64,000 nt of DNA from Dehalococcoidia bacterium (lineage in GTDB: Bacteria > Chloroflexota > Dehalococcoidia > Tepidiformales > Tepidiformaceae): positions 1 through 64,000 of the forward strand of contig JADYYG010000003.1 of the NCBI GenBank assembly GCA_020853755.1, read 5' to 3'. This document shows, piece after piece, positions 11,088 through 14,007 of this stretch. The notes below the pieces were generated by a model. It saw nothing but the letters and a program-made list of their open reading frames with translations, did no database searches and had not been told where the DNA came from. Both the position numbers and the translations under genes were made by a program. Within the stretch, counting starts at the first letter, position 1, and each line of letters opens with the position of its first letter.

Positions 11088-12161
11088 GTGAACCTGCGGA
11101 TCCCCGGACCGACGCCGTGTCCGGAAGACGTCCTCGCCGCCTCAGCGGCACAGATGATGAACCACCGTGGCCCTGAGTTCGCCCAGATCCTGCGGCGCGT
11201 GACCGATGGCCTGAACTGGGTGTTCGGCAGCTCTACTGACGTGCTCTCGCTCACCACTTCCGGCACGGGCGGGCTCGAAACGGCCGTGGTGAACACGCTC
11301 AGCCCCGGGGACCGCGTCCTCTCGGTTTCGATCGGTTCGTTCGGCGACCGGCTGAAGAGCATCGCGAAGACGTACGGCGCGGATGTCGTCAGCTACGCCC
11401 TCGAGTGGGGCGAAGCGGCTGATCCTTCGGTCATCGGCTCGATGCTCGACGAGGACGCCTCGATCAAGGCCGTGCTGGTCACGCACAACGAGACATCCAC
11501 CGGGGTGACGAACCCGCTCGAAGGCATCGCCAAAGAAGTCCGCGCGCGCGACCGTCTTATCATCGTCGACGCGGTGAGCAGCATGAGTTCGATTCCGTGT
11601 CCGGTTGAGCGCTGGGGTCTTGACGTTGTGGTCAGTGGTTCGCAGAAGGGCTGGATGGTTCCTCCGGGGCTGGCCTTCGTGTACATGAGTGAGCGCGCCT
11701 GGGCCGCGAATGCCGAGGCGAAGATGCCGCGCTTCTACTTCGACGCTGCGAAGACCCGCGACTCGCTGGCCAAGCTCCAGAACCCGTGGACCCCGGCGAT
11801 GTCGATCTACTACGCGATGGACAAGGCGTTCGAACTGCTCCGCGCTGAGGGCCTCGAGGGTGTGTTCACCCGGCACGAGGATGTCGCCTCCTATACCCGG
11901 CAGCGGGTGAAGGCGATGGGCCTCAAGCTCGTCCCGGTGAACGAGCAGTTCGCTTCGAACACGGTAACCGCCGTGTGGTGGCCGGAGGGCGTCGATGGCA
12001 AGGCCATCGGGAAGCGCGCACGCGAGGAGTTCGGCGTGGTGCTCGGCGGGGGCCAGGGCAAGCTCGAAGGGAAGATCTTCCGGGTCGGCCACCTTGGCTG
12101 GTTCCAGAAGAGCGACGTCGCGTCAGCGCTCGATGTGGTGGAAAAGCTGCTCAACGCATAG
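11088..12161 (+). CDS. Class V aminotransferase (serine-glyoxylate / alanine-glyoxylate type), likely serine-pathway transaminase
   Basis: A 357-residue PLP transaminase of fold type I. It starts MNLRIPGPTPCPEDV, a typical family N-terminus, and has LTTSGTGGLETAVVNTLSPGD, THNETSTGV, the PLP-phosphate/ring segment IIVDAVSSMSS and the Schiff-base lysine K187 in VSGSQKGWMVPPG. Family members use serine, alanine or phosphoserine with glyoxylate, pyruvate or 2-oxoglutarate. Because serA is immediately downstream and no serC is seen, the gene probably supplies the transamination step of serine synthesis; this is contextual inference. The start is a GTG with GGAG about 8 bases before it. Confidence 0.88.
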   Translation: MNLRIPGPTPCPEDVLAASAAQMMNHRGPEFAQILRRVTDGLNWVFGSSTDVLSLTTSGTGGLETAVVNTLSPGDRVLSVSIGSFGDRLKSIAKTYGADVVSYALEWGEAADPSVIGSMLDEDASIKAVLVTHNETSTGVTNPLEGIAKEVRARDRLIIVDAVSSMSSIPCPVERWGLDVVVSGSQKGWMVPPGLAFVYMSERAWAANAEAKMPRFYFDAAKTRDSLAKLQNPWTPAMSIYYAMDKAFELLRAEGLEGVFTRHEDVASYTRQRVKAMGLKLVPVNEQFASNTVTAVWWPEGVDGKAIGKRAREEFGVVLGGGQGKLEGKIFRVGHLGWFQKSDVASALDVVEKLLNA

Positions 12162-12187
12162 CTGAATCTCTCATCGTTCGTCTCCCA

Positions 12188-12212
12188 GGGGCCATGCAGT
12201 TTGCATGGCCCC
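12188..12212. promoter_or_regulatory. Perfect 11-bp inverted repeat: operator arm pair and/or terminator after the aminotransferase
   Basis: GGGGCCATGCA and TGCATGGCCCC are perfect complements around a GTT spacer. Its core CATGCA-N3-TGCATG is repeated 27 bases downstream (12220-12234). The GC-rich stem just after a stop codon could also terminate the aminotransferase transcript, although the following TGTCGTTC is a poor T-tract. Confidence 0.7.
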
Positions 12213-12229
12213 TGTCGTTCATGCATACT
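12201..12229 (+). promoter_or_regulatory. Candidate promoter of the HTH-serA gene
   Basis: TTGCAT (12201-12206) and CATACT (12224-12229) are 17 bases apart, the optimal sigma-70 spacing. Transcription would begin near 12236-12238, at the ATG, so the mRNA would be leaderless; indeed no Shine-Dalgarno is visible for that ATG. Both hexamers lie inside palindrome arms, so a bound regulator would block RNA polymerase. Confidence 0.55.
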
Positions 12230-12234
12230 GCATG
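12220..12234. promoter_or_regulatory. Second copy of palindrome CATGCA-N3-TGCATG, candidate operator
   Basis: CATGCA-TAC-TGCATG is a perfect inverted repeat whose arms are identical to those centred at 12200. The centres are 27 bases apart (about 2.5 helical turns). It overlaps the candidate -10 and reaches the first possible start codon at 12232. Confidence 0.65.
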
Positions 12235-12237
12235 GAC

Positions 12238-14007
12238 ATGAACGCAAGCGAGTTCAGCGCAATCCGCGCCCAGCTGGGGCACTCACAGGCCAGCATGGCG
12301 GCGCTCCTTGGTGTCGATCAGGGGACCATCAGCCGCTGGGAATCGGGCAAGACGCGGATCCCGGCGGCCATCGAACTCGCGCTGAAACCGCTGAGGGAGT
12401 CTGAAACCATGGCCGAACAACCCCGTCCCCGAATCCTCATCGCTGACCCCGTCGCGCCGGAAGGCATCGAACTGCTGCGAACAGTTGGCGATGTGGAAGT
12501 GAAGACCGGCCAGCCCGCGGACGCCCTTGTCGCCAGCATCGGCAACTACGACGCGCTGGTGGTGCGCAGTGAGACCAAGGTGACCCGCGCGATCATCGAG
12601 GCGGGAACAAAACTGCAGGTCATCGGCCGCGCCGGCGTTGGCGTGGACAATATCGACCTGGAAGCCGCCACCGAGCGCGGCGTGATCGTGGCGAACGCTC
12701 CGCAGGGGAACACCATCGCGGCTGCCGAGCACACGATTGCGCTGCTGATGGCACTCGCGCGGCATATCCCCCAGGCGGATGCATCGATGCGGGCCGGGAA
12801 GTGGGACCGCAAGACGTATGTCGGCACCGAAGTGCGCGGCAAGACGCTCGGCGTCATCGGCCTCGGACCGATCGGTTCCGAAGTCGCCCGGCGCGGCCTC
12901 GGCCTCGATATGCGCGTGCTCGCCCACGACCCCTACGTGTCGGAGGAGCGAATCCGCGCACTCGGCGCCGAGCCTGCCGACTTCGAGGGCCTGATCGCCA
13001 CGGCGGACTTTATCACCGTGCATGTCCCGATGACGGCGGCCACGCGTGGCATGATTGGCACTGAGCAATTCGAGCGCATGAAGCCCGGCGTCCGCATCCT
13101 CAACGTCGCGCGCGGCGGCATTGTCGATGAAGCGGCTCTCGCTGAAGCTGTGAAGGACGGAAAGGTTGCCGGCGCTGCAGTCGACGTGTTTACCGGCGAG
13201 CCGATCGCTGCCGACAACCCGCTGGTAGGTGACCCCCGGATCATCACGACGCCGCACCTCGGCGCCTCGACGGCGGAAGCCCAGGAGCGCGTTGCCGTCG
13301 ACGTGGCCGAGCAGATCGTCGACGTGCTGTCGGGCCGGCCTGCGCGTTACGCAGTCAACGCGCCGATGCTGGCGCCTGAGACCCTCAAGGTCGTCGGGCC
13401 GTACATGGCCGTAGCGGAACTAGTTGGCACGGTCGCGACGCAGCTCGTCACCGGCAAGCTCAAGTCCATCGAACTCGAGTACTCGGGCGAAATCGCTGAG
13501 TACGACGTCACGCCGCTCAAGGCGTCGGTCATTCGCGGCCTGCTCAAGCCGATCAGCGAAGAGACCGTGAACATGGTGAATGCGAACCTTATCGCGCAGT
13601 CACGCGGCTGGGACATCGCCGAGCGTCAGCGAACCTCGCACGAGGTGTTCAACAACCTCATCCACCTGAAGGTGAACACCAGCGATGAGGAAGTAACCGT
13701 CGGCGGCACAGTGGAGCACGGGCTTTCTCATATCGTGATCCTCAACGGCCTGGACATCGACCTGATGCCTGAGCGCGGCACGTCCCTCCTTGCCTGTGAC
13801 AACGAAGACCGCCCCGGGATGATCGGGCGGGTGGGTACGCTGCTGGGCCAGTTCGACATCAACATCCAGTCGATGCAGGTGGGCCGTCGCGGCCGTCGCG
13901 GCCGTGCCCTGATGCTCATCGCAGTGGACGAAGCCCCGACGCCGGAGCAAATCGCGGCAGTCGAGGCGATCGACGGCATTTACAACGTGCGGATGGTGCG
14001 GTTCTAA
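12238..14007 (+). CDS. serA: XRE-type HTH domain fused in frame to D-3-phosphoglycerate dehydrogenase
   Basis: First enzyme of serine synthesis, oxidising 3-phosphoglycerate with NAD+, here with an extra N-terminal DNA-binding domain. Residues 1-57 form a complete XRE helix-turn-helix (FSAIRAQLGHSQASMAALLG, then VDQGTISRWESGKTRIP). From the ATG at 12409 a normal type I SerA follows (532 residues): IGRAGVGVDNIDLEAA, NAD loop GVIGLGPIGSEVA, catalytic Arg/Glu/His region (LNVARGGIVDEAAL, TPHLGAST), intervening ASB domain and a C-terminal ACT domain (DNEDRPGMIGRVGTLLG) that normally senses serine. GAGGGAG 9 bases before 12409 is a good ribosome site, so both a fusion protein and a free SerA could be made. 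The first start could also be ATG 12232. Confidence 0.9.
   Translation: MNASEFSAIRAQLGHSQASMAALLGVDQGTISRWESGKTRIPAAIELALKPLRESETMAEQPRPRILIADPVAPEGIELLRTVGDVEVKTGQPADALVASIGNYDALVVRSETKVTRAIIEAGTKLQVIGRAGVGVDNIDLEAATERGVIVANAPQGNTIAAAEHTIALLMALARHIPQADASMRAGKWDRKTYVGTEVRGKTLGVIGLGPIGSEVARRGLGLDMRVLAHDPYVSEERIRALGAEPADFEGLIATADFITVHVPMTAATRGMIGTEQFERMKPGVRILNVARGGIVDEAALAEAVKDGKVAGAAVDVFTGEPIAADNPLVGDPRIITTPHLGASTAEAQERVAVDVAEQIVDVLSGRPARYAVNAPMLAPETLKVVGPYMAVAELVGTVATQLVTGKLKSIELEYSGEIAEYDVTPLKASVIRGLLKPISEETVNMVNANLIAQSRGWDIAERQRTSHEVFNNLIHLKVNTSDEEVTVGGTVEHGLSHIVILNGLDIDLMPERGTSLLACDNEDRPGMIGRVGTLLGQFDINIQSMQVGRRGRRGRALMLIAVDEAPTPEQIAAVEAIDGIYNVRMVRF

Follow-up and report, generated by a model that had tools for sequence, protein, structure and literature searches.

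In the window, which is the whole stretch of 64,000 nt analysed here, positions 12238–14007 of the plus strand form a single open reading frame of 589 residues. It codes for an XRE helix-turn-helix, a short linker and a complete type-I phosphoglycerate dehydrogenase (PGDH, SerA), which catalyses the first step of serine synthesis. The features of the locus are the following:

11088–12161, plus strand: class-V aminotransferase gene, SerC-like by position (PF00266, 7e-23; no NCBIfam equivalog above its cut-off)
12186–12214, plus strand: 13-bp perfect hairpin CAGGGGCCATGCA-GTT-TGCATGGCCCCTG (RNA fold), downstream of the aminotransferase stop, with operator site 1 as its tip
12193–12207, no strand: operator site 1, CATGCA-GTT-TGCATG, including the -35-like TTGCAT (12201–12206); conserved in 20 of 20 aligned fused copies, with TTGCAT invariant
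12220–12234, no strand: operator site 2, CATGCA-TAC-TGCATG, including the -10-like CATACT (12224–12229); arms identical in 20 of 20 fused copies
12236–12238, plus strand: predicted transcription start, at the ATG or a few nt from it (leaderless), placed from the -10 position
12238–12399, plus strand: XRE helix-turn-helix domain, residues 1–54 (HTH_3), with recognition segment DQGTISRWE
12393–12399, plus strand: GAGGGAG, Shine-Dalgarno-like, for the internal start; 20 of 20 copies have GGAG or something close to it about 9–12 nt upstream of this ATG
12400–12426, plus strand: variable linker of low confidence (pN/pS 0.68; pLDDT below 50 at residues 56–61), containing a conserved internal Met
12409–14007, plus strand: SerA, type-I D-3-phosphoglycerate dehydrogenase with intervening (ASB) and ACT domains (TIGR01327); ATG 12409 is a probable second start

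The upstream aminotransferase gives poor scores with phosphoserine transaminase models; its best match, below the cut-off, is the aspartate-glyoxylate aminotransferase BhcA. On the other side an AHSA1-type gene (PF08327, 14004–14863, minus strand) is convergent with serA and is preceded by a regulator which by eye looks ArsR-type.

The XRE segment begins with ATG 12238 and runs for 57 codons up to 12409, where SerA starts. It belongs to the XRE/HTH_3 group both by its Pfam score, above the gathering value (34.7 bits, cut-off 23), and by its helical fold: the AlphaFold model has four helices at residues 3–13, 17–24, 28–36 and 43–55, with pLDDT 76–87. A profile of the XRE domains of the family matches the 434 repressor and other XRE proteins in the PDB. 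The overall pTM of the model is low (0.42), so that it does not show reliably how the domains lie relative to each other, and the linker has low confidence.

SerA reaches 651 bits with the model of full-length type-I PGDH (TIGR01327, cut-off 454). Pfam finds 2-Hacid_dh, 2-Hacid_dh_C, PGDH_inter (PF19304) and ACT (PF01842, 41.1 bits), the last two above their cut-offs. The first-pass annotation had described a complete 57-residue XRE domain in frame with a full PGDH, which is what the reading frame, Pfam and TIGR01327 give. The closest solved relative is the PGDH of M. tuberculosis (1ygy/3ddn, E about 1e-103), with an alignment that spans the whole length. The M. tuberculosis type-I enzyme (1ygy, 3dc2) shares the catalytic, intervening and ACT domains with SerA along some 520 residues, but it has no N-terminal DNA-binding domain. 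Among its serine contacts, which we take to be Tyr461, Asp463 and Asn481, the positions of Asp463 and Asn481 are identical here, and that of Tyr461 is Asn. The catalytic R, E and H motifs are present in all fused copies; within the clade, fused and unfused copies alike retain the catalytic and ACT motifs.

With a profile of XRE, linker and SerA we have found the fusion intact in 21 out of 38 genomes of the family, which comprises Tepidiforma and relatives (Dehalococcoidia, Chloroflexota). The search for the same fusion in relatives, a check put forward in the first-pass annotation, has thus given 20 further fused genomes. They rule out a sequencing error or an annotation artefact as the source of the fusion.

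Operator pair, predicted promoter and hairpin

Just upstream of the XRE start we find two perfect palindromes CATGCA-N3-TGCATG, 27 bp apart, at the positions already noticed in the first reading of this DNA. A genome search for further sites had been proposed there; with up to one mismatch it gives just these two matches in the 3.37-Mb genome. The shorter form ATGCA-N3-TGCAT is likewise restricted to the serA pair. In the family the paired pattern is found in exactly one place, at serA, in all 21 fused genomes and in none of the 17 unfused ones (one of the latter, G002, is uninformative, as its assembly lacks a full SerA). Chance palindromes are ruled out by the presence of only two copies in 3.37 Mb and by their strict co-occurrence with the XRE domain.

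The two sites had been said to cover the -35 and -10 elements of a promoter with a 17-base spacer. Both elements are present and their arrangement is conserved in 20 copies. TTGCAT and CATACT match the E. coli consensus at just 7 of 12 positions, and a generic sigma-70 scan did not call the serA promoter. Since the hexamers themselves are weak matches, it is the -35/-10 geometry conserved among relatives which supports the promoter. In all 20 copies the N3 of site 1 ends in T and gives TTGCAT, while site 2 yields CATACT, CAGAAT, CACAAT, CAAAAT, CATAAT or CATTCT, always of the form CAnnnT. The N3 spacers of the two sites thus differ from each other in a constant manner. The hexamers are separated by 17 bp in 14 genomes, 18 bp in five and 16 bp in one; a spacing of 16–18 bp is the classic sigma-70 range. 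The arms of site 2 are invariant and those of site 1 vary at one position in three genomes (ATGCG). Over the 20 positions of the half-site arms the pairwise difference is 0–2.7%, as compared with 64–67% in the flanking DNA.

Most fused genomes have two or three ATGCA-N3-TGCAT sites in total. A few of them (G025, G010, G018, G030 and G032) have extra ones, but all are unpaired and mostly have a different N3, which does not fit a wider regulon. The fused regulator would thus have essentially a single target, the serA promoter. Two extra single sites do have the N3 of the true sites: one (L132) lies within an apparent coding region, the other (L131, G025:C95, about position 1066) is upstream of an apparent PadR-type gene. 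The latter, ATGCATACTGCAT, is identical to serA site 2 and lies just before this putative regulator gene.

Site 1 doubles as the tip of a covarying hairpin, a point which was missed in the first-pass annotation. The intergenic region 12161–12245 folds with a z of -6.3. The flanks of site 1, at positions 7 to 15 from its centre, covary over nine further pairs with several types of compensatory change; 127 of 180 flanking pairs are formed at the true register, and 35–73 when the register is slid by 1–3. The stem has at least 11 pairs in about 60% of the genomes, and in the rest, about a third to a half, it hardly goes beyond the core. There is no U-run after it, so that a canonical intrinsic terminator is rejected. 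These features could mean that the palindromes act as RNA, with the 13-bp hairpin of site 1 ending or protecting the aminotransferase message and the XRE domain having another target. We consider this very unlikely: invariance is confined to the core ATGCA-N3-TGCAT and is equal in site 2, where no comparable covariation of the flanks was found among the fused copies; besides, the strict co-occurrence with the XRE domain would be left unexplained. The operator role, in its turn, does not account for the RNA-like conservation of site 1. As an RNA hairpin the site may well have an additional role, which in most lineages would be to separate the upstream message from serA.

A probable second translation start and conservation of the XRE domain

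The XRE-SerA message is probably leaderless, with a leader of about 0–4 nt. Between the -10 element and the XRE start codon there are 6–10 nt, and the first base of CAnnnT lies 12–16 nt before the ATG in all 20 copies. None of them has GGAG, GAGG or AGGA in the 20 nt before this ATG. Leaderless genes are characterized by the lack of a Shine-Dalgarno sequence and by a -10-like signal some 12 bp upstream of the start codon (PMC3160421). The XRE start agrees with this description by position, with CAnnnT as its signal rather than TAnnnT. An earlier in-frame start, ATG 12205 inside site 1, is not conserved; the reading frame of the relatives begins at the equivalent of 12238, and in three of them (L008, L016 and L020) there is a stop shortly upstream.

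A second start at ATG 12409 with its own GAGGGAG site had also been proposed, and both elements are found in 20 of 20 copies. Met 58 is kept, always as ATG, in the middle of an otherwise variable linker. The GAG codon of the Shine-Dalgarno-like site is used in all copies, although GAA is common elsewhere in these genes. Internal initiation is likely because the ATG, the GGAG-type site and the GAG codon are conserved. Free SerA is thus probably also made, in agreement with the earlier suggestion that fusion and free enzyme may both be produced.

An extreme case would be that only ATG 12409 is used and that the XRE frame is a fossil; a Shine-Dalgarno-like site before 12409 and none before 12238 is what it would predict. 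It is hardly credible in view of the conservation of the domain. In 20 fused copies pN/pS is 0.33 in the XRE part, 0.24 in the catalytic part, 0.34 in the ACT part and 0.68 in the linker, i.e. the XRE domain is about as constrained as the ACT half of SerA. No copy has a stop or a frameshift between XRE and SerA, which had been named as a possible refutation of the fusion, and the indels of the linker preserve the frame (fused proteins of 587–590 residues). Within the recognition segment, D-Q-[GA]-T-[IV]-S-R-W-E, there is hardly any variation. These comparisons show purifying selection on the XRE domain.

Distribution and probable gain and loss of the cassette

We searched 84,980 species with XRE peptide patterns: all 18 fusions found come from Tepidiforma and related Dehalococcoidia. 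None of the other 62 XRE matches has a SerA nearby, for patterns which a divergent XRE-SerA of another phylum could escape. Among the matches listed from 400 Chloroflexota genomes, an XRE extension is absent from every SerA outside the family. One long stop-free extension of SerA that we looked at (G486) is not a helix-turn-helix. The fusion is carried by Tepidiforma flava YIM 72310 (L047), a cultured isolate (PMC10284905).

In five unfused genomes with an intact neighbourhood (L022, L023, L024, L026 and L027) no operator or XRE domain is present, and the stop codon of the aminotransferase gene touches or overlaps the start of SerA. Genus g12, a more distant one within the family (L029, L030 and L031), also lacks the XRE; it has a short stretch similar to GCTATGCTGA upstream of serA, possibly another control element.

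The SerA tree does not unite the fused copies: it requires three or more changes, and a joint clade is rejected (AU p 0.0035). Independent origins are unlikely, since operators, XRE domain and spacing are the same everywhere. One gain followed by several clean losses, or the exchange of serA between lineages, fits better. The cassette appears to be gained and lost as a unit, which is a second point absent from the first-pass annotation.

These genomes also have short free-standing XRE genes (L120, L124 and L126, the last in the genome of the window at G000:C60:6800-9900) with a palindrome ACACG...CGTGT near their own start; its form in this genome is TTACACGGTAGCGTGTA. This suggests a second self-regulated group with a different operator. 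Short self-regulated XRE genes seem to be common here and are a plausible source of the fused domain.

Probable autoregulation of serA and its possible signal

That one polypeptide could sense serine and repress its own promoter was the central proposal of the first reading. Its autoregulatory part is well supported at the level of sequence, because co-occurrence is perfect (21/21 against 0/17), the -35/-10 geometry and the second start are conserved and the XRE domain is under purifying selection. As for serine, we infer that it is the signal and acts as co-repressor.

The sequence of events would be as follows. A leaderless message, transcribed from a promoter with its -35 and -10 inside the two ATGCA-N3-TGCAT operators, would give the XRE-SerA chain. 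PGDH of this type is a tetramer, as in M. tuberculosis; its four helix-turn-helix domains could make two pairs, enough to match both operators. The bound protein should repress, because the operators cover both core promoter elements: it would block RNA polymerase at both of them and place serA under negative feedback. The ACT domain of PGDHs senses serine. Here it would most likely tune the binding, with serine favouring repression. The start at ATG 12409 would give a PGDH devoid of DNA-binding domain, so that the output of enzyme need not equal that of repressor. DNA binding, repression, the serine signal and mixed tetramers are all steps that we infer.

C proteins of type II restriction-modification systems are XRE-like. 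They share with XRE-SerA a small helix-turn-helix regulator whose own promoter holds two palindromic operators, and a leaderless message, the latter judged here by position only; one of them has been reported fused to its restriction enzyme (PMC4824078). In our case the partner of the XRE domain is instead a biosynthetic housekeeping enzyme that carries a domain for ligand sensing, and the place of a linked restriction endonuclease and methylase is taken by the aminotransferase upstream and the convergent AHSA1-type gene downstream.

This likeness in promoter architecture (PMC4824078) leads to a serious rival to serine co-repression, namely control of copy number with no ligand: the fused XRE would count SerA copies as C proteins do, and serine would act on enzyme activity alone. 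In the model the linker looks flexible and would transmit little allosteric signal to the XRE domain, as this rival would have it. For such a purpose fusion to an enzyme with a sensor is less obviously useful than a separate small XRE protein. The ACT domain is also well conserved, but so it is in the unfused relatives. We judge ligand-independent counting possible, though on the unlikely side.

The XRE domain might also activate, or else activate from site 1 and repress from site 2 according to concentration. C.Csp231I activates at low level and represses at high level through two such operators (PMC4824078), and the poor -35 match recalls activated promoters. Nevertheless both sites overlap the promoter hexamers, a position that normally blocks polymerase, and restarting a biosynthetic gene would be difficult if its activation required the gene's own product. 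Activation is accordingly an improbable role.

Coming back to repression, the fusion may be compared with the trigger enzymes PutA, NadR and BirA of E. coli, of proline, NAD and biotin metabolism (PMC8249747). As in these, a metabolic enzyme and a DNA-binding domain are in one polypeptide with genes of its own pathway as target, which for XRE-SerA is a prediction from sequence; as in PutA, the promoter region of its own gene would be essentially the sole target (PMC8249747). In contrast with all three, the DNA-binding part of XRE-SerA may be omitted through the second start. BzdR also has an N-terminal XRE domain, joined by a linker to a domain derived from shikimate kinase, an amino-acid-pathway enzyme, but its catalysis has been lost and it is a pure regulator (PMC3602430). 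XRE-SerA keeps its catalytic motifs and resembles rather the bifunctional intermediate, chimera Q1, built in the BzdR work (PMC3602430). In the literature searched, which covers few subscription journals, we found no XRE-serA or XRE-PGDH fusion.

On the whole, this protein is likely to be a trigger enzyme devoted to the repression of its own promoter, with binding tuned by the ACT domain and a second start for free enzyme. We put forward a fuller picture tentatively, as one that could well be wrong in some part. It would be the first trigger enzyme of serine biosynthesis: a leaderless XRE-PGDH that reads serine through its ACT domain, with free PGDH from the internal start and a ratio between both forms which sets self-repression. 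Its cassette (hairpin, two operators and XRE) would have entered an operon between two of its genes, to be cleanly lost in several lineages.

The evolution of enzymes into transcription factors has mostly been studied on endpoints which have lost catalysis, such as BzdR, or on a few trigger enzymes of E. coli. In XRE-SerA both the catalytic and the regulatory part are apparently intact; the operator can be predicted to single-base precision, and there would be essentially one target. Close relatives without the cassette allow a direct comparison of gain and loss, and a carrier, Tepidiforma flava YIM 72310, is available in culture. If true, this family offers a natural collection of enzymes, some with a repressor built in and others lacking it, and XRE-SerA would represent a simple route by which a biosynthetic enzyme comes under the control of its own sensor of the end product.
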